Below, one piece after another: positions 18,393 to 30,920 of a DNA stretch of 31,177 nucleotides. Both the position numbers and the translations under genes were made by a program. This DNA is from a virus. The notes beneath the pieces were generated by a model. That model had not been told where the DNA came from, searched no databases, and saw only the letters and a list, made by a program, of their open reading frames with translations. Numbering within the stretch: the stretch's first letter is position 1; each line of letters starts with the position of its first letter. Where the stretch lies: positions 1 through 31,177 of IMG/VR virus record IMGVR_UViG_3300028840_003407. One strand, given 5' to 3'.

Positions 18393-21300
18393 ATGCCGAG
18401 ATACATAGCCATAGACTACGATCCCTTTCAGCAGGACCGGATCCGGCCCGAGCTGGAAAAGCGGCAACCGGCCATGAAGCTGGTACCCGTGGACTACGAT
18501 CCTTTTGCCGAGAAAGCCGAGCCCGTGCAGGCCCCCAGGGTCGGGATACAAGAGCCAAGAAAGGGCGGGATAACTGAAGGGCTAAAGCAGATCCCGAGAG
18601 GCTTCGTTCATGGTTCCCTCGGCATAGCCGAAAGCGCTGGTACCGGCCTGGAATACATCGGCCATAGAATGCAGGAAGCTCCCGGTCTGGAAGATCTTGC
18701 ACGCACGCATCCAGGGCGCGCCTATGCCATGATGTCGCCTACGGATCAAAAAACAGTGTCTGATCTGATCAATAAGGGCGCTGATTTCCAGGACGCTCTC
18801 ATCGAAGTAACTACGAACCCTCCGTACGTTCCTATGCGAGAGAGCATGAAAAAGGCGGCACCCGGCGTTATTCAGCTCGGAAAAGACATTGCCGGTTCCC
18901 AGGCCGAGGTCGCTGAGCAGTACGGCCCTCCGGAACAATTCGCCGAGAAGAACGTCTGGGACAACCCCGAAGTGCTCAAAAGCCCTACCTGGTGGCTCTA
19001 CAATACCGCTGAAATGGCGCCTACGCTGGCCGCTGCCATGATCCCCGGAGCAGGCACGTACAAGGCGGTGCAGGTCGGAGGCGCGGCGTTGAAGCTATCT
19101 CCTGTTGTTATCTCCCGCATGGCGCAATTAGGCGCTATGGTCACAGGCGGCGCGGTCGGTGGCACCCTTGAGGGCACGCAGACATACAAGGCCGTGCTGG
19201 AAGCAGGCGGCACGGAGCAGGAAGCGGCCAGGGCCATGGAGCTCATGGGACTATTCAGTGCCGGTTTGAACTCTATTTCTGTCGGTAAAATGTTCACAAA
19301 GGCGGGCCCCGGGTTTCTCAATAAGGTCAAGAAGGTCGGTGCGTCCGGTATTGTCGAAGGGCTCACCGAGGGCGCAGAAGAGCCCTCGGAGGTAATAGCG
19401 AAAATAGGCGCAAAGCTGTTCACTGGCCAGAAGGTCCCGGACAATATTGCGCAAATGTTCTTTGATTCGCTCAAGGACGCTGTGACAGTGGCTCCGATTG
19501 CCGCAGTTACGGGTTTTGCCGGAGGCGCGGGCGGCGCACAGGTCGCTGGCGCCGAAGCAAAGGACATGCTGCAAGGCGATGCAGAACCAGCCCTTGTCAA
19601 CGAGATCAATCAGATTCTGCCAGAGGAAGAACCCGTTGCGCCGGAACCCGCAGCGCCTAAGCTAATACCTCTTTCACAGCAACGGCAGGCAGAGATTGAA
19701 CGGATCTGGGCCGAAGAGGAAGCCGTAGAAGAGCCGGCAAGGCACGGAATCGTTGCGCCGGAGGACCGCGAGGCAATTGCTGCAAAAAGACGCCAGGAAG
19801 AAATTGATCGCTTTGCCGAAGAGCAGGCCCGGACAGAGCGCATACAGCAAGAATACTTTGCGCGCCCGGCCAGGTATGGCATCGCGCTACCGGAAGAAAG
19901 ACGGCAGCCTGCGCAGCCAGAGAAGCCCCCTGAAGAGATCGCAACGCCGCCTATACCGAAGGTCACGCCGGAAGAAGAGGTCGCCTTAGAGGCAGCTAAG
20001 AAGCCCCAAACTGAAACCGAAGCGCCTTGGCTGAAAACCCTTTATCGGGGATGGACAGAGGGAGTAACGAAGGAGCGTGGCGAAGAAACATCATGGAGTC
20101 CAGAGAAAGAATACGCACAGACCTATGGTAAGAAGTTATCAACAGCCAAATTAAGCCCCAAAGCCAAAGTCCTGTCTTTCCTGCGAAGGGAACCTGACTT
20201 GCCTGGCAATCCCTGGGTAACAGATTATGGCTCTGAGCTCTACAACCGCTATAGAAAGCCTGGCCCGCTAATGAACCCGCCTTACATGGAACTCGACTTT
20301 GATCAAATGAGAGAGGACGGTTACGATGCAGTTGTGTGGGTTGATGACGGAATAGAGGTTCGCGTTTTGACGGGTGACGCACTTGAAAAGCCTCCCGCAA
20401 CGCCTGAAAGGACAGAGGTAGCTCCTGAGGGCGTTGAGGGGGAAGAACCCAGGGAAAGCCCCGCAATCGAGGCCCGCAGGAAAGAGCTTGAGGGCCTTCC
20501 GCGTCCGGACTGGCGCACACATCTATTCCGGGCAAGGGAGTACGCTAGCGTTCTCGGCGTGACCTGGGATCCGTCTTGGACGCCGGAACAGATCGCGGAC
20601 GCCGTAGATTCTCATCTCGATAAAGAGGGTCTGCCCGAAGAGGCCGCGCCCGAACCTGAATACATCGCCGGTATGGCGCTGAAGATGGATGATGGCCGCA
20701 TCATCACCGGCGAGGATGTCGGAGTCGAGGGAGTATCGCATACCGAAATATGGGATAAGCTGTCCCTGGAAGACAGAGACCGTGTGGAAGACGCTGACGG
20801 CGTAGTCACGAACACAGGCCGGTTTCTGACCCGGGAAGAAGCAGCGGAGTTTGTGGGCAAGCCCGGCGAGCTACTGGACGCATCGGAGCTGGTAAGCAGG
20901 CGGAAAGGGGCAGAGAAACCCGCCGCAGCGCCGGAAGAGGCCCCGAAGAAACCCGAGGACATGACGGCAGGGCAATGGTTCGATTATAAATGGTCTAAGC
21001 TCCCCAAAAAAGTTCAAAGGGCGATTTTAAGCGGAGAAAAAGGGTATGCGAGTCTCCAGCAAATAAGAGAGCAAACCCACAGAGAGCATGAACGCCTTGT
21101 TGAACAACCCCCCTCGGCCCCCAAGAAGGCCGAGGACATGACGGCTGATGAGCTGCTCGCGGAGCTGGATCGGCAGACTGAGGAAGCACCAGCCGCCAAG
21201 GAGTCCGCAGAAAAGCCTCCTGCCGCAGACAAGGATTGGATAGGTAACAACCTCGAGGGGGATCCGGTCTACGAGGACGAAAGAGGGCGGTATCTGAGAA

Positions 21301-24300
21301 AGCGCGCCGGCACCGGGCATGCGATTATCCATGCCCCTAGAGCTATTGGGCCTGCTGGCGAACGAATTGCGCCGAAAACTGCTCGTCAACTATACAAAGA
21401 AAGCCCTTTTTCCAACTATATAACCGAGGCTGAATACAAGAGGTTCGAAGCTGAGAAGAACCCCGCAGAAAAGCCGCCCCCGGCACCCAAACCAGAGCCA
21501 ACCCTCAAGGCGTATGGCGTTGAGGATGTCTCGCCTCTGGCGGCAGAACTTGAGCGAGCGCTTACTAGAGAGCCGAAGATCCCGCGTCAGCTGGCCGAGG
21601 AGGCCGGAATACCCTATGAGTCTTTCAACGAGATTCGAGCAGTGAACGAGGCAGTCTCGGAACTCGCGCTGCACAAGATCGCGTCCGAGAAAGACGGCAA
21701 ATACATTCATGGTGGGCGGCGATTGGTTCGGCCAAAAGCCACACTTGCAGAAAAGGCCACCGAAACCAAGCAGCACCTTGCCAACGCGGCCGACAAGTTC
21801 AAGCAGATCAACGCGATTCTCGGCGAAAAGGGCGAGCTTGCCCCAGGCGAAGAGATCGATGAAACCAAGTGGGCCCAGATTCAGCCCCTGCTGAAAGGGG
21901 CCTGGGATGATATCATCGCCGCCGGCAAGACAGGTGCGGAATTCGTGTCTCTTGCTCTCGAGGCCCTCGGCACCAAAGGCAAGCCGTATATCGCCAGATT
22001 TATTCGTGAAGTAAAGGCCCCAACTGCCCCAAAATCCTTGACAAAACCGCCAAAAGAGACTATTATAGAACCAACAGAACAACCCACAGAAGGAGGCGAA
22101 TATGGGCCTGGAATCGAGCAAGTGGTGGAGGGCCCGGCTGGAATACCTCCTGGAGTTCGAGCCGGAGACCGCCCGGCGCCTGTTCCGGAACAAGGAGAAG
22201 TTCCGCCGGCACCTGGAAGAGAGGGTGAACCACGCGATCAACGTGAACAACTCCCTCAAGAGCCGGGACCTGAACCCGGACCAGAGGGAAGAGATCGTGA
22301 TGAACGCGATCGCCCCGACCGAGGGGCAGCCGTCGGAGAACCCACTCCCGGAGGAGCTAGAGTTCCAGATACGGGCGTGGGCGGAGCAGCCAACCACGTA
22401 ATCCTGCCTGATGACGTAATCGTTCCGCGAGGCCCTGAAGGCAAGATCAAGGCCAATATCAGGGCCATACAGCTTGTCAAGACCCTCCAACAAGAAAACC
22501 GCGCAGCAACCCCCGACGAGAAAAAGATCCTTGCCCAATATGTCGGGTGGGGTGCCTTCTCCCAGAAGATCTTCGATCCTGAATTCACCGACTATATAGC
22601 GCACGGCAAAGACCGGTATACGCCGGAGCAGTGGTTTACCTCGCCGGAGCAGGCCAAGAAATACCGGGAGTGGGAAACCAGGTACGGCGAAAAGCTTCAT
22701 CCGGGCCTCGGCGGCGCAATGACCGAGGAAGAATGGAAGTCGGCCAGGGCATCTACGATCAACGCGCACTTCACGAGTCGTCCTGTAATCAACGCTATGT
22801 GGGACATTGCCGAACGCATGGGCTTCAAAGGCGGCACTGTCCTGGAGCCTGCCGCTGGCGTCGGCCACTTTTTCGGGCTCATGCCGCAGCGCTTAGCGCA
22901 AGACTCGGTCCTGTTCGGTATCGAAAAAGATACTTTGTCCGGGGCCATCCTCGACAAGCTCTATCCGGACGCAAACACGCAGACCACGCCGTTCGAGAAA
23001 TCCAATATAGAGAACAACTCGATGGACATGGTGATCACTAATGTTCCCTTCGGGAACGTGTCGATCATCGACAAGAAGCATCCGGAGTATTCCGGCTGGT
23101 CCTTGCACAATTACTTCTTTGCCCGGTCCCTCACCGCAACAAAGCCCGGCGGGTTAGTGATGGCAATTACTTCTTCCTGGACCATGGACGCGAAAAGCAA
23201 TGCGCGCGTACGCGAGTATCTTGCCGGCAAAGCCGATCTTGTCGGCGCTGTCCGGCTACCCAATACAGCGTTCAAAGAGAGCGCCGGCACGGAGGTAGTC
23301 ACCGACATCATTGTGCTGAGGAAAAAGGATAATTCCGAGTATCCTGGTCACGACTTTCTTACCAGCACAACGCTTGACACCCCGGAGAAAACAGAGGCTG
23401 AGGCCAGTCTGCAGGAAGCCATCCAGCAACGGGACGTTTTGCAGAAAATTCCCGCCAAAAAGCGCACGGATTCCGAGAAAAAGCAACTATCGGATGCCAA
23501 GGAGGATGTAAGCAAGAGCCTCAAGAAGATTGCAGGTCTCTACGGCGTGAACGAGTATTTTACCGAGAATCCAAAGATGGTGCTCGGCAAGCACTCCATG
23601 AAGGGAACAATGTATGCCGAGGGCACATATACGCTTGAGCCGACCGGGAATCTCCATGACCAGATCGAGGCTATTATCACAGAGTTTCCCGAGAACATTG
23701 CCGGAGAAGGCACGGATGTCTCTGAAGTAGAGCCCGTTGTGTATGCAGAATTGGGTGCCAAGGAAGGAACCCTCACTGTTAAAGACGGCGTGGTGCAGCT
23801 TGTAGAAAACGGCAAGCTGATAAAACCCTATTATCTGGACAGCAAGGGCAACAAGCAGCCCATATCCGGACTGCGCCTGAAGAGGGTCGAGCGATATCTG
23901 CAGGTCAGAGAAGCTACCGTAGAGCTCTTCGATTTGATGGCCGATGTAGAGACTACGGATCAGCAAGTAACCGACGGGCAGAAGCGCCTGGAAAAGCTCT
24001 ATGACGGATATGTCAAGAAGTACGGCTATTTCAACAGCACTGCCAATGGATTTATACGGCAGGCAGACAACGATTTCGCAGTCGTGGATGCGCTTGAGAT
24101 CGAGGACGACGACGACAAGAACGTCTATCATAAAGCCCCTGTTTTCACAAAGCGGACCATCTTTCCCTTTGTAGAGCCGACCACTGCCGAAAGTGTCGAG
24201 GATGCCGCATATTTGTCCATGGCCTATCGCGGCACGATAGACGTCAAATACATTGGCTCCCTGCTGAACATCCAAGACCTGGAAGCTGTCAAAACGGATC

Positions 24301-27300
24301 TGGTCGGTAAGGGCCTTGCCTTCATCGAGCCCGATACCGGCCTAATGATCCAAAAAGACGAGTATTTGTCCGGCAACGTCAAGAAAAAGCTCAAGGCCGC
24401 ACAGGCCGCAGCGCAAGATGATGACCTGTACAAGACCAATGTGGACGCTCTTCAGGCCGTTGTGCCCGAAGACATGGACATATCCTTGATTGATTTTAAG
24501 CTCGGGTCCTCATGGATCCCCGCAGACACAATCAAGGACTTTCTCAGAGAAGTTATCGAGGTCGAAGCCGATATCGAGTTCGCCCAGGGCGAGACGGGCG
24601 CTATCTGGAAGATCGCAGAGAAGAGCGGCTTTAACGGCATAAAAAACCGGGAAACATACGGCACACAGGAGTACTATGCCACCGGGCTGATCGAGAACGC
24701 TCTCAATATGAGACGGATCAAAATCAAAAGAAAGGAGAGGGACCCGGTTACTGGCTCAGAGCGAACCTATGAGGACAAAGACGCATCCAAAGAGAATAAC
24801 CTGAAAATTCAGGAAATCAGCAGCGAGTTCGTAGCCTGGGCTAAATCTCACGGCGAATGGGCTGCCAGATTACAGGACATCTACAACGAGGAAAAGAACG
24901 GTTTTGTGCTGAGAACCCATTCGCCGCCAGTGTTCCGGGACGCTGAGGGCAAAGAAACCGTGCATTACCCGAACGCTTCGGCAGAAATCACCCTCAGAGA
25001 GCATCAGAGAATCGCTGTTTCCCGGGCATTGCAGGAATCCGTGTTGCTTGCCTACGGTGTCGGTACCGGCAAGACATATATCTATATTACCACAGCCATG
25101 GAAATGCGCCGGATAGGCACCGCGAGAAAGCCCCTGATCGTTGTTCACAACCAGACCATAGATCAGTACCGGACATCGTTTAAGACCCTGTATCCTGCGG
25201 CTAAAGTGCTTATTCCGAACTATGCTCAGCGGTCAAGCAAGATGAGGAAAAAAACGCTGGTGAGCATGGCCACCGGCGATTGGGACGCCATTGTTCTTCC
25301 TCAGAGTTTCTTTGACGGCATTGCCAACGATCCGGATCGAGAAAGAGCTTTTGTGGAAGAACAGCTCATGGCGATCGAGGAACAAATTGCCAGCACCAGG
25401 GAGGAAGAAGGTTCTAAGTCCCTGCGCGTCAAAGAAATGGAGAAGATGCTGCAGCGCCGGGAGCAGCGCCTCGAGGCATTGCTTGAGCGCAGAAAAGACG
25501 AGGCAGTGCTTTTCGAGCAGATGGGTATAGACGCTCTTCTCATCGATGAAGTGCACGCCTATAAGCGCAGCGAGTTCTATACAAAGCTCGGCAACGTGAA
25601 GGGTATCGATTCCGGATCCTCGCAGCGAAGCTCAAGCCTGATCCTCAAATCAGAATACGTCCGGCGAAAGACCGGCGGCAAGAACGTCATTACCGCTACC
25701 GGAACGCCGATCTCCAACACCATGGCAGAGCTCTGGACCATGCTGCGGTACGTGCGGCCCGATCTGCTTGAAGAATACGGCGTAAGCACCTTTGACAACT
25801 TTGCCAACACGTTCGGCGACATCGTGGAAGATGTTGAAGAAACCGCTTCTGGCTTCAAGGACATCGAGCGCTTTGCCAGATACGTGAACGGTCCCGAGCT
25901 GCTCATGATGTTTTTCTCGGGCGCGGATATCCGCCTCACCAAAGACGCGAACCTGAAACTTCCCGCCATCAAGGGCGGCAAGCCGGAAATCGTTGTATCT
26001 GAAAAGAGCGAGGAATTGAGGCGCTATATTCAAGGCATTGTTGATCGCTGGCGCGCCTGGGAAGCTCTGAACGGCAGAGAAAAGCGCAAGCAAAGGCACG
26101 TTCCCCTCGTTCTCTACGGGCTGGCGAAGAAAGCGGCGGTGGATCTTCGCCTGATAGATCCGGCGTATTACAAAGAAGACCCGGACAGCAAGCTCGGCAA
26201 TGCTTGCGAGAATATCCACAGAATCTATCAGGAAACGAAAGCCAAGAAAAGCACGCAGATCGTGTTCCTGGACATTTTCCAAGACGAGACCCGGCGATTC
26301 AATGCCCATCAAGAGATCAAGCGGAAACTGACGGAGCTCGGCATACCGGAAGCAGAGATAGAGCTCTTTTCTTCGGGCATCAATGAAAAGAAGGAAAAAG
26401 CTATCAAGGACCGGATCCGATCCGGAGAATCCCGCGTAATCATCGGTTCTTCCGCGCGCTTGGGTATAGGGGTCGATATCGCAAACAAGCTGATCGCATC
26501 GCATCATATCAATGTGCCCGATCGGCCCATGGATATCGAGCAGCGGGACGGGCGCATCATTCGCCAGGGTAACGAGAACGACGAGGTTCAGATCTACCAT
26601 TATTGCACAAAAGACACCCTTGATTCAGTCATGTTCAATAGGCTCGTAAAAAAGCAGAAATACGCAGATCAAGTACTTACCGGCGACATCGAAGGCAGAA
26701 CCTTTGAAGACCCGTACAGCACGGAGCAGGCGTCCTTTGCAGAGTTTGCCGCTGCGGCCTCCGGCCAGGCGGGAAAGCTGTTGCTCGAGAAAAACTCCCT
26801 GCTATCGGAGCAAAACAAGTACAAAATCGCCCAGAACGCCTGGACCCGGAGAGTGTCCTCGGCGCGAAGCAAGCTCCGGGAGATCCCCGTCGAGATTGCC
26901 AATATGCGCAAGCGGCTCAAAGAGGTAGAGAACGAGAAGAAAAAGATCGAAAAGGCTTTCCCCGACTTGCAGCTTGAGACACTGACGTTTGAAGGCGAGA
27001 CCATGGATCGCAAGGTATTTGCGGAGCGCCTGGCCGACACCATCAAAGGCATAGATGAAGAATGGAAGAGCAAATATCACGAGATGGCGTCGGGTGACTT
27101 CGCAAAGGAGATAGAGGCGCATGGCGCTTACGGCCAAGTAGAAAGAACGATCACTGCAAAGGCCGGGAACATAGACATCTCGCTCAAGCTCTCGACGTTT
27201 ACAGACTACAAGAAGGAGAGCAAACCTTCGAAGAAGATACACTATTTCGGTCTATCAAAATGGGTGGGCGTCAACCTTTCGCTCGATGGCCACCTTCTGG

Positions 27301-30300
27301 ATAGTAGCCATCCACAAACTGAATCACTCCCGGGCGGCACGTTCACGCGCCTTTTCAATGACGTCATCAAGAAAGCAGTCGCTCTTCCCAAGGGCATAGA
27401 GCAGGATATCGCCAGAGAGCAAGAGGACGAGAAGGAATTCGAGAAGATCGCGGATGAAAAGTTCCAGTACCGCGAGCAGCTTGTCGCCGCGCAACGGCGC
27501 ATTGCCGAAATAGATCGAGAGCTGGTGAACCTCACCAAGGATGAAGAGCCAGCGGAGGCCCCTGAAGAGCCTTTGCGCGGGACCCCAGAGGATTTTGCCG
27601 TCGAAGCACAGGCTCCCAAGCGACGATTCTATAGGAGCGTTTGGCTGCAAGGTAAGACTCGGTGGACTGAAGCTCCTTCTAGCGCAGAGCCGATCGAGAT
27701 TGTGCCATGGGCCGAAACCTACATCTACGGCGATGAGAACGGATGGCACGTTGTCGAAGTGACAAGCGGCCAGGCGTTCGGACCTTGGCAGGACACCCGC
27801 CAAGAGGCCATTGACGCCGCCAAAGAGATTGTCGAGCAGAAGGGCGAAGAGGGCGTTAAGAAAGCCATTGCTGATTCAATCCAAAAGACAGGACCCGCAC
27901 CCGCTGTCAAGGCCGCTGTCAGCAAGCTGACCGAGGAAAGAGGATCTATCTCTTTCAAGAGCATCCAGGACGCCTTAACCTCCGAAGAATCCGAGACCGA
28001 CCTTACCGTCGTTAGATCCCACGACATGGGCAGGCTGGAAAAGCTCGAGGCCCCTCCGCAATGGCTGGCAAAGAAATACGATGAAGTAAAGCAGATGTTC
28101 GAGCGCATGAAACAGCGGGACAGGGACCGGATTCGCATGCTGTCTCAAAGCATAGACGAAAGCGCTGAGTTCTATGGCCTAAAAAAGGACTCTGAAGAAT
28201 TCAGCCAGCTAAAGCATCTGATATGGGCCATGGAAAACCGGGCCATGAAGGGTATGCCGCGCAAGTTCGTGAAAGTCGGCGGCGAAGAAGTAGAAGCCGA
28301 GGGCGAAGCCTGGGAACGCGGCGCAGAAAGAAACTTTGCTTTCGATCCGGACAGCACGAAAAACGAGGGCCGGTTTCAGCTCCTGCCTCCCGGACAAGTA
28401 TCGGACTATTTCAACCGGTATTCCTCCACTGAGGGCGTGCGATACGTAATGGGCAAAACCGAGGCCGGCGCGGAAGTAGTGCAGAGCGTCCGGTTCAAAA
28501 AAGAGCTGTTCACAGAGGACAAAGCCGGCAAGTGGTGGGAAAAGAACGCAGAATCAGAGGGCCTGGGTTTCGCCGAGGCAGAGATCATCGGCGGGCACTA
28601 TGAGCTCAACGAGGACTACTACACGCAGTACCGGGAGTGGCTCGGCAAGCTCAAGTCTGTTTCGGAGCCTGTGAAGGACATCTATCTCCAGATCCGAAAG
28701 AGCTTAGACAAGGATCTGTCGCAGGTCTACAACTCCATGGCCGACATGCCCGATATCGAAGAAAGCGTTTTGCAGGAATTCCGAAGGTCCATGGGCACTA
28801 TTCACAACTACTTTCCTCACATGCGCTACGGCAAATACTTTCTGCAGGCGTTCAACGAGGACGGAGAGCTCGTGTTCCGGGAGCACTTCAATGCGCCTAC
28901 GGGCTATGAACGCAAAGCCCGTAGGCTGATCGCAGAGCTCAAAAAGCAGGAAGGTTTCGCCGGCGTTAGTTTCAAGACGGGCAAGGTCGAGCGCCTGCCG
29001 GAGGAAGTGTTTGCGATACCCGTGCCGATCGAAGCCATTGAAGCAGTGATGAACGCTGCGATAAAGCGGATTCCCAATGAAGACGCAAGATCTGCGTTCA
29101 AGGCCATGCTCCCGGAGAACATCGCCAATGTTCTAAAGGCCCGGGGTTGGGGAGCTCATATGATCCGGCGGCAAGGCATTCCCGGTCACGAGACCGAAGA
29201 TATACAGCGCGTTCTTTTCGACTACAAGGCAGGGCTCTATGGCTGGATGACGAAAATGGAATGCGCACGAGACTTCTCCCGGATCATGGCGAGAGTGGAT
29301 CCTGCGGGCAAGGCCCGGCTGTGGGCGTGGATGCGCAACTATTCCTACAATATGCTCGAAAACGCCAGCGAGATAGATAGGCTGGTCAGCAACGCAAAGG
29401 CTCTTTTCTTTGCGAAATACCTCGGTGCGAACGTAAAGACCGCTGTGCTCAATACGACCCAGAACATTATCGCCGGTTGGCCGCGCCTGGGCATGGAAAT
29501 GGGGGGCGCGTTCGCGCAGGCCCTCAAAGGAGCTAATGCGGACATAGTATCCCATATACGCGGCCAAAAGAACCTTTCTGCCGATGAAGTGCGGCTCATC
29601 CAGCAAATGTTCGAAGAAGGCACTACTGGCGCGCAGTTTCTAACCGAGATCCGATCCCAGATCGGCGACAACGTGTTCTCGGCTACGAACAAATACCTTA
29701 TGCGCGGGCTAGGCATGCCCATGGAAATCGCGGAGCGGTTTAACCGGGTATCCATTGCGATTGCCGCATACAGGGCCGCTGTAGACGGCAAGATCAACAA
29801 CGAGAGCACGCTCAAGCAATACGATGTAAAACAGGGCGAAGCGCTGTCATATGATCAGGCCAAAGAGTTTGCCACGACCATTGTCGAAGACGCTCATTTC
29901 GTGTATGGCCGATCCAATAGGCCCGAGGCTTTCAGGGTCGGCGAGGCCGGAAAGCTGGCCCAGGCCGGCTATACTTTCCGCAGTTTCACGCATCACCTAT
30001 TGCATCTCTGGAAATACATGCTGCTGGAAACCGGCATGAGGGGCAAGACAGCGTTTGCCAAAAGCCTGGCGGCCACCATGGCCATCGGTGGCGTCACAGC
30101 AATCCCGCTGTACAAGACCTTTATGAATATTCTCCGGCAGCTCACGGGCGACGATCCAGAAGAAGACATCACCGCGATTCTGCCCGAAGACGCGGACATG
30201 CTGAAAGACATGCTGCTCTACGGCATGCCGGCGATCAGCGGGTTCACGATCGGCGGCAGCGTCGGTATGGAACTGCCCGTGTTCGAGCGGCTGAGCCTGC

Positions 30301-30920
30301 AGGGATCAATTACCACACAGGCCGGAAAGCAGATAGGCGAGATCATCGGTATACCGTGGGCTGTTGCCGAGGACGTTTCAAGCGCGTACCAGGCTTACCG
30401 GGTAGGCCAGGGGTCCCGAGCTCTGGAATACCTGTTGCCCGCCGGCATTGCGAACATCTTCAAAGGTTACAGGCTGTACAGCGCAGGCAACTATACATTG
30501 TCCGGCAGGCCCATTGCGGATCCATCTGCGCAGGACTATCCGCAAACAGAAGAAGTGTTGAAACTCGGCATGCGGCAGGCCATAGGCAAAGCCTTTGGGT
30601 TCCAGCCCACGAAAATGACCGGTGCCTGGAACATCGAACAAGCCATGCAGGATTTTATAGCCTACAAAACCAATAAGCGGTCCGAGCTGGCAAGCCGGAT
30701 TCTGAACGCTAAAGGCATCAAGCGCAAGCTGAAAAAGATCGAGCAGGACTATATCGAATGGAACCAAAAACACCGGGTCGATCATCCAGAGTACGTGATT
30801 ACACCCGATGAGCTGGTGCAATCCATACTCGCCCGCACGAGGACCCGGAAGCCACCGATGTATATGCTCGGCAGAACATTGGAATTGCGAGACAGATATC
30901 TAACCCAGGAGGCCCCATGA
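18393..30920 (+). CDS. Giant polyvalent protein, 4175 aa: ART-like domain, DarB-like methyltransferase and SF2 helicase
   Basis: One uninterrupted frame of 4175 codons occupies the slot of the large ejection protein (T7 gp16). Visible order: doubled DYDPF motif (7-12, 33-38); Ala/Gly-rich hydrophobic region (about 206-395); charged low-complexity stretch; ADP-ribosyltransferase-like domain (550-660); small phage modules including a TGRFLTREEA segment (760-833); Pro/Gly/Arg/Glu linker (1237-1337); DarB-like region with EPAAGVGHFFG (1485-1495) and NVPFG (1550-1554); SF2 helicase with GVGTGKT (2222-2228), DEVH (2385-2388), TATGTP (2434-2439) and QRDGRIIRQG (2717-2726); then a long C-terminal part with an FPHMRYGKY segment (about 3475) and an LPD38-like helical region (about 3667-3960). 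P1 DarB is packaged and protects injected DNA from restriction; I infer a similar virion-borne role. The ribosome site is weak, so translation probably depends on coupling to the upstream gene. No frameshift is needed to read it. Confidence 0.85.
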   Translation: MPRYIAIDYDPFQQDRIRPELEKRQPAMKLVPVDYDPFAEKAEPVQAPRVGIQEPRKGGITEGLKQIPRGFVHGSLGIAESAGTGLEYIGHRMQEAPGLEDLARTHPGRAYAMMSPTDQKTVSDLINKGADFQDALIEVTTNPPYVPMRESMKKAAPGVIQLGKDIAGSQAEVAEQYGPPEQFAEKNVWDNPEVLKSPTWWLYNTAEMAPTLAAAMIPGAGTYKAVQVGGAALKLSPVVISRMAQLGAMVTGGAVGGTLEGTQTYKAVLEAGGTEQEAARAMELMGLFSAGLNSISVGKMFTKAGPGFLNKVKKVGASGIVEGLTEGAEEPSEVIAKIGAKLFTGQKVPDNIAQMFFDSLKDAVTVAPIAAVTGFAGGAGGAQVAGAEAKDMLQGDAEPALVNEINQILPEEEPVAPEPAAPKLIPLSQQRQAEIERIWAEEEAVEEPARHGIVAPEDREAIAAKRRQEEIDRFAEEQARTERIQQEYFARPARYGIALPEERRQPAQPEKPPEEIATPPIPKVTPEEEVALEAAKKPQTETEAPWLKTLYRGWTEGVTKERGEETSWSPEKEYAQTYGKKLSTAKLSPKAKVLSFLRREPDLPGNPWVTDYGSELYNRYRKPGPLMNPPYMELDFDQMREDGYDAVVWVDDGIEVRVLTGDALEKPPATPERTEVAPEGVEGEEPRESPAIEARRKELEGLPRPDWRTHLFRAREYASVLGVTWDPSWTPEQIADAVDSHLDKEGLPEEAAPEPEYIAGMALKMDDGRIITGEDVGVEGVSHTEIWDKLSLEDRDRVEDADGVVTNTGRFLTREEAAEFVGKPGELLDASELVSRRKGAEKPAAAPEEAPKKPEDMTAGQWFDYKWSKLPKKVQRAILSGEKGYASLQQIREQTHREHERLVEQPPSAPKKAEDMTADELLAELDRQTEEAPAAKESAEKPPAADKDWIGNNLEGDPVYEDERGRYLRKRAGTGHAIIHAPRAIGPAGERIAPKTARQLYKESPFSNYITEAEYKRFEAEKNPAEKPPPAPKPEPTLKAYGVEDVSPLAAELERALTREPKIPRQLAEEAGIPYESFNEIRAVNEAVSELALHKIASEKDGKYIHGGRRLVRPKATLAEKATETKQHLANAADKFKQINAILGEKGELAPGEEIDETKWAQIQPLLKGAWDDIIAAGKTGAEFVSLALEALGTKGKPYIARFIREVKAPTAPKSLTKPPKETIIEPTEQPTEGGEYGPGIEQVVEGPAGIPPGVRAGDRPAPVPEQGEVPPAPGREGEPRDQREQLPQEPGPEPGPEGRDRDERDRPDRGAAVGEPTPGGARVPDTGVGGAANHVILPDDVIVPRGPEGKIKANIRAIQLVKTLQQENRAATPDEKKILAQYVGWGAFSQKIFDPEFTDYIAHGKDRYTPEQWFTSPEQAKKYREWETRYGEKLHPGLGGAMTEEEWKSARASTINAHFTSRPVINAMWDIAERMGFKGGTVLEPAAGVGHFFGLMPQRLAQDSVLFGIEKDTLSGAILDKLYPDANTQTTPFEKSNIENNSMDMVITNVPFGNVSIIDKKHPEYSGWSLHNYFFARSLTATKPGGLVMAITSSWTMDAKSNARVREYLAGKADLVGAVRLPNTAFKESAGTEVVTDIIVLRKKDNSEYPGHDFLTSTTLDTPEKTEAEASLQEAIQQRDVLQKIPAKKRTDSEKKQLSDAKEDVSKSLKKIAGLYGVNEYFTENPKMVLGKHSMKGTMYAEGTYTLEPTGNLHDQIEAIITEFPENIAGEGTDVSEVEPVVYAELGAKEGTLTVKDGVVQLVENGKLIKPYYLDSKGNKQPISGLRLKRVERYLQVREATVELFDLMADVETTDQQVTDGQKRLEKLYDGYVKKYGYFNSTANGFIRQADNDFAVVDALEIEDDDDKNVYHKAPVFTKRTIFPFVEPTTAESVEDAAYLSMAYRGTIDVKYIGSLLNIQDLEAVKTDLVGKGLAFIEPDTGLMIQKDEYLSGNVKKKLKAAQAAAQDDDLYKTNVDALQAVVPEDMDISLIDFKLGSSWIPADTIKDFLREVIEVEADIEFAQGETGAIWKIAEKSGFNGIKNRETYGTQEYYATGLIENALNMRRIKIKRKERDPVTGSERTYEDKDASKENNLKIQEISSEFVAWAKSHGEWAARLQDIYNEEKNGFVLRTHSPPVFRDAEGKETVHYPNASAEITLREHQRIAVSRALQESVLLAYGVGTGKTYIYITTAMEMRRIGTARKPLIVVHNQTIDQYRTSFKTLYPAAKVLIPNYAQRSSKMRKKTLVSMATGDWDAIVLPQSFFDGIANDPDRERAFVEEQLMAIEEQIASTREEEGSKSLRVKEMEKMLQRREQRLEALLERRKDEAVLFEQMGIDALLIDEVHAYKRSEFYTKLGNVKGIDSGSSQRSSSLILKSEYVRRKTGGKNVITATGTPISNTMAELWTMLRYVRPDLLEEYGVSTFDNFANTFGDIVEDVEETASGFKDIERFARYVNGPELLMMFFSGADIRLTKDANLKLPAIKGGKPEIVVSEKSEELRRYIQGIVDRWRAWEALNGREKRKQRHVPLVLYGLAKKAAVDLRLIDPAYYKEDPDSKLGNACENIHRIYQETKAKKSTQIVFLDIFQDETRRFNAHQEIKRKLTELGIPEAEIELFSSGINEKKEKAIKDRIRSGESRVIIGSSARLGIGVDIANKLIASHHINVPDRPMDIEQRDGRIIRQGNENDEVQIYHYCTKDTLDSVMFNRLVKKQKYADQVLTGDIEGRTFEDPYSTEQASFAEFAAAASGQAGKLLLEKNSLLSEQNKYKIAQNAWTRRVSSARSKLREIPVEIANMRKRLKEVENEKKKIEKAFPDLQLETLTFEGETMDRKVFAERLADTIKGIDEEWKSKYHEMASGDFAKEIEAHGAYGQVERTITAKAGNIDISLKLSTFTDYKKESKPSKKIHYFGLSKWVGVNLSLDGHLLDSSHPQTESLPGGTFTRLFNDVIKKAVALPKGIEQDIAREQEDEKEFEKIADEKFQYREQLVAAQRRIAEIDRELVNLTKDEEPAEAPEEPLRGTPEDFAVEAQAPKRRFYRSVWLQGKTRWTEAPSSAEPIEIVPWAETYIYGDENGWHVVEVTSGQAFGPWQDTRQEAIDAAKEIVEQKGEEGVKKAIADSIQKTGPAPAVKAAVSKLTEERGSISFKSIQDALTSEESETDLTVVRSHDMGRLEKLEAPPQWLAKKYDEVKQMFERMKQRDRDRIRMLSQSIDESAEFYGLKKDSEEFSQLKHLIWAMENRAMKGMPRKFVKVGGEEVEAEGEAWERGAERNFAFDPDSTKNEGRFQLLPPGQVSDYFNRYSSTEGVRYVMGKTEAGAEVVQSVRFKKELFTEDKAGKWWEKNAESEGLGFAEAEIIGGHYELNEDYYTQYREWLGKLKSVSEPVKDIYLQIRKSLDKDLSQVYNSMADMPDIEESVLQEFRRSMGTIHNYFPHMRYGKYFLQAFNEDGELVFREHFNAPTGYERKARRLIAELKKQEGFAGVSFKTGKVERLPEEVFAIPVPIEAIEAVMNAAIKRIPNEDARSAFKAMLPENIANVLKARGWGAHMIRRQGIPGHETEDIQRVLFDYKAGLYGWMTKMECARDFSRIMARVDPAGKARLWAWMRNYSYNMLENASEIDRLVSNAKALFFAKYLGANVKTAVLNTTQNIIAGWPRLGMEMGGAFAQALKGANADIVSHIRGQKNLSADEVRLIQQMFEEGTTGAQFLTEIRSQIGDNVFSATNKYLMRGLGMPMEIAERFNRVSIAIAAYRAAVDGKINNESTLKQYDVKQGEALSYDQAKEFATTIVEDAHFVYGRSNRPEAFRVGEAGKLAQAGYTFRSFTHHLLHLWKYMLLETGMRGKTAFAKSLAATMAIGGVTAIPLYKTFMNILRQLTGDDPEEDITAILPEDADMLKDMLLYGMPAISGFTIGGSVGMELPVFERLSLQGSITTQAGKQIGEIIGIPWAVAEDVSSAYQAYRVGQGSRALEYLLPAGIANIFKGYRLYSAGNYTLSGRPIADPSAQDYPQTEEVLKLGMRQAIGKAFGFQPTKMTGAWNIEQAMQDFIAYKTNKRSELASRILNAKGIKRKLKKIEQDYIEWNQKHRVDHPEYVITPDELVQSILARTRTRKPPMYMLGRTLELRDRYLTQEAP
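20040..20384 (+). other. ADP-ribosyltransferase-like domain in the giant protein (residues 550-664)
   Basis: The segment opens LYRGWTEG with Arg552. It continues ETSWSPEKEYAQTYG with Ser569 in the place of the ART Ser-Thr-Ser strand, followed by an Ala-x-x-Tyr helix. It ends GYDAVVWVDDGIEVRVLTG with Glu655. This gives an R-S-E arrangement like that of arginine-type ARTs and of ART domains found in phage polyvalent proteins. The final glutamate is not in a clear E-x-E or Q-x-E turn, so activity is uncertain. Packaged ARTs such as T4 Alt modify host targets straight after injection. Confidence 0.5.
22090..22096 (+). promoter_or_regulatory. Shine-Dalgarno site for the overlapping gene
   Basis: AAGGAGG at 22090-22096 is the full core match to the 16S anti-SD sequence, 5 bases before ATG 22102. 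It is as strong as the site of the scaffold gene and much stronger than that of the giant gene in which it lies. Confidence 0.7.
22102..22401 (+). CDS. Overlapping 99-aa gene in the +1 frame inside the giant gene
   Basis: A complete ORF with its own strong ribosome site lies wholly within the giant gene, shifted +1. The protein reads like a normal globular helical protein: MGLESSKWWRARLEYLLEFE, then PETARRLFRNKEKFRRHLEE, a middle helix with INVNNSLKSRDLNPDQREE, and an acidic C-terminus. By my count 91 of its 99 codons end in G or C, a strong coding bias that belongs to this frame. The giant frame over the same bases is a Pro/Gly/Glu/Arg-rich linker. The pattern of an aromatic-rich first helix, an L-x-x-E-P-E turn and a Glu-rich continuation faintly resembles small TnpV-like proteins, but I do not claim that family. 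Function unknown; its place beside the DarB part suggests a small partner of the methyltransferase-helicase. Confidence 0.75.
   Translation: MGLESSKWWRARLEYLLEFEPETARRLFRNKEKFRRHLEERVNHAINVNNSLKSRDLNPDQREEIVMNAIAPTEGQPSENPLPEELEFQIRAWAEQPTT
22542..23492 (+). other. DarB-like adenine methyltransferase domain (about residues 1384-1700)
   Basis: A YVGWGAF segment (about 1384) precedes the domain, as in DarB-type proteins. TINAHFTSRPVINAMWDIAE leads to the AdoMet-binding EPAAGVGHFFG (1485-1495). The catalytic motif is NVPFG (1550-1554) after DMVIT, a variant of the N6-adenine NPPF/Y motif that I recall as frequent in DarB-like proteins. Downstream, KPGGLVMAITSSWTMDAK and LVGAVRLPNTAFKESAGTEV are also typical of this group. 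The VNEYFTENPKMVLGKHSMKG segment near 1720-1740 marks the DarB-specific spacer before the helicase. Confidence 0.8.
24960..26740 (+). other. SF2 (SNF2/DEAH-like) helicase domain pair (about residues 2190-2783)
   Basis: Motif I GVGTGKT (2222-2228), motif II DEVH (2385-2388, in LLIDEVHAYKR), motif III TATGTPISNT (2434-2443), and the second RecA domain with RVIIGSSARLGIGVDIANKL and motif VI QRDGRIIRQG (2717-2726) are all present and in order. A coiled-coil insertion (residues about 2335-2370) separates motifs I and II. All catalytic residues for NTP hydrolysis are intact, so it is probably an active translocase or helicase fused to the methyltransferase. Confidence 0.88.
30907..30912 (+). promoter_or_regulatory. 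Ribosome-binding site of the last gene
   Basis: AGGAGG, 4 bases before ATG 30917, lies inside the end of the giant gene. With the ATGA stop/start overlap it gives the following gene both coupling and independent initiation. Confidence 0.6.

Follow-up and report, generated by a model that had tools for sequence, protein, structure and literature searches.

Evidence for a conserved out-of-frame gene nested within giant DarB-like polyvalent genes of phages and plasmids

DarB-like proteins are among the largest antirestriction proteins of phages, and both their packaging and their action are poorly understood. The giant gene analyzed here can be compared to P1 DarB and the DarB-like polyvalent proteins (PMC5512222), with which it shares an LPD36 region, an adenine methylase and an SNF2 helicase; an overlapping gene is not mentioned in the text of that paper. 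P1 darB differs in that it begins right at the LPD36-methylase module and carries no nested ORF. P1 also encodes Ulx, a small protein whose gene is next to darB and which is listed as helping DarB to localize to the head (PMC9024508). Ulx is a possible model for how a small protein nested in a DarB-like gene might work, although its own gene lies downstream of darB. Homology between Ulx and the nested protein was rejected, as the hhalign score of 9.9-13.9 is at decoy level.

The window is a stretch of viral DNA of 31,177 nucleotides (IMG/VR record IMGVR_UViG_3300028840_003407), and all features given below are on its plus strand. The genes 5' of the giant ORF code for a major head protein, further head proteins and an internal virion protein. 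This ORF (18393-30920) encodes a protein of 4175 aa that matches PHROG 10089, 'DarB-like antirestriction', with E-values of 3.9e-163 and 1.6e-237. An LPD36-like region with a GWGA motif and the N6-adenine methylase domain together occupy 22422-23600 (alignment A2), directly 3' of the nested gene, and a Pfam match to Eco57I MTase at 22977-23234 falls just under the cut-off. The GXGU motif of LPD36 is described by Iyer et al. 2017 (PMC5512222). The SNF2/SF2 helicase part at 24987-26570 has Pfam matches to ResIII and SNF2-rel_dom over the cut-off and to Helicase_C under it, and the C-terminal region (28806-30845) is of the PLxRFG type of virion polyvalent proteins (NCBIfam NF032893, 4.4e-48). Judged by its LPD36, adenine methylase and SNF2 helicase parts, the predicted product is a DarB-like polyvalent protein. 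Motif IV of the methylase reads NVPF (23040-23051, giant frame VITNVPFGN), as in P1 DarB, and differs from the NPP(Y/F) described for this methylase class; the methylase activity may therefore be altered. At 28434-28553 the giant protein hits BRX, a plant domain (PF08381, 3.6e-6), probably through a coincidence of helical composition.

Inside the giant gene, in the +1 frame relative to it, a Shine-Dalgarno (SD) sequence, AAGGAGG, can be read directly at 22090-22096. It is followed by a 5-nt spacer, an ATG at 22102, 99 codons (22102-22398) and a TAA at 22399-22401, exactly as the sequence-only reading had described, and the +1 frame becomes open only a dozen codons 5' of this ATG. The predicted product of 22102-22401 is an all-helical protein of 99 aa, 11.8 kDa and pI 5.5. 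The giant frame spans the nested gene with a linker (22098-22421) that had been called rich in Pro, Gly, Glu and Arg, and these four make up 62% of its residues over the nested ORF; linkers of similar composition occur at the same place in relatives. The earlier reading also saw a sign of selection in the G or C found at the third position of 91 of the 99 codons. This count is right, yet it is weak evidence. Codons for Gly, Pro, Glu, Asp, Ala, Val and Gln, and most of those for Arg and Leu, have G or C as first base, and since giant position 1 is position 3 of the +1 frame, the composition is partly forced. When the giant protein was held fixed and its codons were shuffled synonymously according to the giant gene's own usage, the +1 frame was open in 35% of the shuffles. 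The window ORF by itself is little proof, as its openness alone is not beyond chance. The synonymous choices of the giant frame in the overlap differ strongly from those made elsewhere in the gene (z = -6.9, controls -1.4 to +1.2), as expected if another frame dictates them, and the same anomaly is seen in relatives (z -1.2 to -17.9, controls near 0). Combined with the conservation and the substitution patterns described below, these choices place the nested ORF beyond chance.

Relatives were collected by scans with the methylase region, over which the viral loci are 35-64% identical; profile A1 was too divergent for scanning the collection. Altogether 54 loci were examined, window included, and 49 of them are distinct. 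An open stretch of at least 90 codons was present in the +1 frame in 49/49 distinct loci, none of them broken by stops, and in the +2 frame in 0/49. The conserved stretches terminate within about 150 nt of the LPD36/methylase module. Elsewhere in the giant gene, open stretches were counted in 32/241 cases in +1 and in 36/241 in +2. The reverse frames are often open as well, so length alone is no argument; the frame and the place are. An SD match of at least 4 nt stands before the first in-frame nested ATG in 26/46 loci, as compared to 14% of the internal ATGs of the giant gene. With starts picked by best SD the figure becomes 34/46, which is biased by that choice. The full AAGGAGG also occurs in three relatives (L003, L005, L013), and AGGAGGT in L011.

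Not all DarB-like genes share this arrangement. Besides P1 darB, the nested ORF is absent from four DarB-like plasmid genes (L080, L081, L082, L085), and hence not every enzyme of this kind can depend on it. These four genes also have no comparable linker, which fits a linker written over an older gene. A further nine loci (L035, L036, L037, L039, L023, L038, L048, L054, L057) keep the position of the +1 ORF with products that are not recognisably related to that of the window, and these may be diverged or replaced partners. The phage loci L031 (4546-4953) and L033 (3755-4162) have 25 differences over 300 codons of the methylase region and 90 differing sites in the 136-codon nested gene, a pattern that suggests recombination or fast evolution of the nested segment.

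Selection on the two frames was analyzed by counting differences at giant codon positions 1/2/3 in close pairs, in the overlap and in the 300 codons downstream, where giant position 1 equals +1 position 3 and giant position 3 equals +1 position 2. Downstream, the usual excess at giant position 3 was observed; in the overlap the pattern was reversed, with most differences at giant position 1 and fewest at giant position 3. For L022/L024 the overlap gave 27/14/9 and the downstream codons 16/15/105 (Fisher 5e-12), for L017/L018 50/24/18 vs. 49/34/126 (Fisher 1e-10), for L026/L028 56/34/19 vs. 55/44/134 and for L042/L044 21/13/11 vs. 30/19/112. Isolate phages behaved in the same way, as seen for SopranoGao/LASTA (9/2/2 vs. 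9/3/72, Fisher 3e-6) and PEp14/Pavtok (16/10/10 vs. 17/13/129). Fisher p-values for the shift ranged from 6e-4 to 5e-12 in six viral pairs and were below 1e-5 in 10/10 pairs among five isolate phages, the pairs being partly non-independent of one another. In the closest pairs that include the window itself, divergence is too great for a clean shift (41/38/36 with L008). Alignment scores in the overlap were higher for the +1 frame than for the giant frame in 26/27 pairs; identities by themselves gave a less clear picture, being inflated by the low-complexity linker. When the +1 protein was held constant, the giant frame was open in a median of 0.7% of shuffles using downstream codon usage and 8% using the ORF's own usage. 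That it is nevertheless open argues that the giant frame is maintained as well. Taken together, these results show that purifying selection acts in the +1 frame and that both frames are functional, the small protein being the more constrained product in the overlap, the opposite of the stronger giant-frame conservation that would have spoken against the sequence-only reading. On this sequence evidence we regard 22102-22398 as almost certainly a real gene, and the earlier proposal of an unannotated +1 protein-coding gene inside a virion polyvalent gene is upheld by conservation and phase-shifted substitutions.

An AlphaFold2 model of the 99-aa protein, built with 21 sequences, was confident (mean pLDDT 92.7, pTM 0.81) and consists of five helices; a more distant family member reached a pLDDT of 79, with a confident helical core. 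The window protein matches no profile of known families in searches that included HMMER against Pfam, NCBIfam and PHROG. By profile, two sets of nested products that had been collected separately are homologous to each other (probability 91.5, score 41.8, decoys at most 15.5), and a third set, A5, is weaker at 32%. The A5 group has weak Pfam hits (sperm tail and others) that look like coiled-coil noise, PDB hits of the A6 profile (designed helical repeats, recoverin) were set aside as helix composition, and a histidine-kinase match of L002 is a chance local match.

TnpV (Pfam PF14198) is a small protein of clostridial transposons and mobile elements. Its HMM, run over 36 whole records, gave matches in 9, at one place each and always at the small ORF or a homologue of it. 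The phage members L041 and L007 fall just under the Pfam cut-off of 27 bits, the best viral relative scoring 23.4, and only a plasmid protein, L070, passes with 28.9. The Nitratidesulfovibrio plasmid homologue with this score is annotated as TnpV and lies directly upstream of a DarB-like helicase gene. No PF14198 match was found for the window protein. The family resembles TnpV in length and profile, whereas the window gene is nested in another gene and shows no transposon linkage; instead of a transposon or integrative element with a recombinase, its setting is a virion gene region with head proteins upstream.

A second, probable kinship is with DUF1896 (PF08989). By hhalign the nested family compares to it with a probability of 69.7% and a score of 34.5, while 100 decoys reached at most 13.7; HMMER gave no match of the window protein to DUF1896. 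PG0816 (2apl), the one solved DUF1896 protein found, came first among the PDB fold hits for the window model and second for the relative's model, at weak values (prob 0.57 and 0.51, E about 3). In Bacteroidetes, DUF1896 immediately precedes the same methylase-helicase gene, and the two overlap by about 11 nt; for two Prevotella DUF1896 genes a methylase is not annotated alongside within the short stretch examined. Likeness is seen in position relative to the N6-methylase-helicase gene, weakly in predicted fold, and in a profile similarity well over decoys. Unlike the nested gene, DUF1896 genes are free-standing, known from Bacteroidetes, and encode about 145 aa with a C-terminal extension. We regard the nested family as probably a distant relative of TnpV and DUF1896, and homologues exist both as overlapping and as free-standing genes.

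A tblastn search with the PEp14 product returned 21 records, which belong to twelve phages: Erwinia PEp14, Pavtok and Stean; Klebsiella SopranoGao, LASTA and SJM3; Pseudomonas Itty13; Agrobacterium Atu_ph08; Ochrobactrum POI1126; Vibrio VvAW1; Sinorhizobium PBC5; and Microcystis Mwe-JY07. In 21/21 records the large polyvalent gene is the sole feature annotated at the nested place, and the suspicion that annotation drops such a gene was borne out in every phage record checked. Phage 8P and Burkholderia phage JC1 have a nested ORF at the same place too, in JC1 at about 49219-49638 of its record. Mass spectrometry of purified JC1 virions has detected the DarB-like gp69 with 51 unique peptides (PMC9144972). 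In PBC5 the TnpV-like domain has no ORF of its own and instead makes up the C-terminus of orf33, the polyvalent protein encoded upstream (L068, 1002-1976). On plasmids of Pseudomonas, Burkholderia and Acidovorax, the small gene carries the label hypothetical and again occupies the +1 frame relative to a methylase frame that is open there; the methylase start as annotated lies further downstream. In L064 (2602-3154), L063 (1039-2065) and L086 (2087-2642), the open methylase-helicase frame extends far 5' of that start and across the small gene. These annotated starts are probably too late, as the upstream N-termini (MPRKRRQ..., MQLDLFG...) look real. Neither the L041 nor the L070 product recovered additional plasmid or phage relatives by tblastn, and profile A7 had 0 matches in 299 Pseudomonadota genomes, a search that is uninformative as it had no positive control. 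No paper found in the open-access literature, which omits most subscription journals, describes the nested gene.

The best explanation, to which we give a probability of roughly 0.75, is that an ancient nested gene encodes a small helical accessory partner of the DarB-like module and that the linker of the giant protein was written over it. The sequence-only reading had called the gene overprinted. The overlap is real, and the direction is probably the reverse: the apparently shared fold and the stand-alone relatives make the small protein look older than the giant linker. A foreign gene recently inserted into the linker was ruled out, since relatives have linkers of similar length with nested ORFs at the same place. 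Ribosomes that enter the giant mRNA at the nested gene's own site would make the small protein, and others would read through in the giant frame to make the 4175-aa protein, in which the overlap would supply a flexible Pro/Gly-rich linker. Internal, SD-led initiation could in this way yield the 4175-aa and the 11.8-kDa protein from one message in independent amounts. The small protein may be a dedicated accessory of the methylase-helicase that binds its LPD36/methylase part, and we infer such binding from genetic linkage. It may act during packaging, as a chaperone or an inhibitor, or else after injection, where it would form a subunit of the antirestriction activity. The constant position beside LPD36-methylase-SNF2 across phages and plasmids tips us, by a little, towards a partner of the module.

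Other explanations have to be weighed against this. The nested gene may be real and its product act alone, for example as an anti-defence protein that is injected or made early and is merely physically linked to the DarB-like gene. This would suit a small protein, anti-CRISPR homologues have been noted close to DUF1896 genes (PMC6739104), and the L031/L033 divergence is as expected of an arms-race gene or a swapped cassette; the linkage to LPD36-methylase-SNF2, however, persists in phages, proteobacterial plasmids and Bacteroidetes elements, and we consider solitary action unlikely, though a serious contender. Entry into the +1 frame by programmed frameshifting, which would fuse the giant protein's N-terminal half to the small domain, is brought to mind by the fused domain of PBC5 orf33. 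It is improbable given the SD-led ATGs that open the frame in many relatives, at first ATGs far above background, and the few open codons ahead of the ATG in the window.

The distant TnpV similarity of relatives could also point to an Xis-like recombination-directionality protein, as once postulated for TnpV of Tn4451 (PMC3158075). That proposal itself rested on homology only, and the present gene sits inside a late virion gene downstream of head proteins with no recombinase adjacent, which leaves very little room for such a role. A chance ORF created by the composition of the linker would agree with the open frame in about a third of the window shuffles, but it is hardly credible in view of the phase-shifted substitutions, the conservation in all distinct loci, the codon-usage anomaly and the confident fold.

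The ancient nested gene with a partner role would belong to a widespread family. In our judgement it is rather probable that DarB-like genes of phages and plasmids carry a +1 partner gene not previously described, that their linker was written over an older free-standing gene, and that annotation has dropped the gene in phages or truncated the methylase in plasmids. An out-of-frame overlap of this kind is unusually deeply conserved for bacterial viruses. It exposes a systematic annotation error, with genes missed in phages and methylase starts probably truncated in plasmids, and it would tie two orphan families, TnpV and DUF1896, to one genetic module. The nested gene in the isolate phages PEp14, LASTA, JC1, 8P and VvAW1 is a testable candidate for the missing partner of DarB-like proteins.
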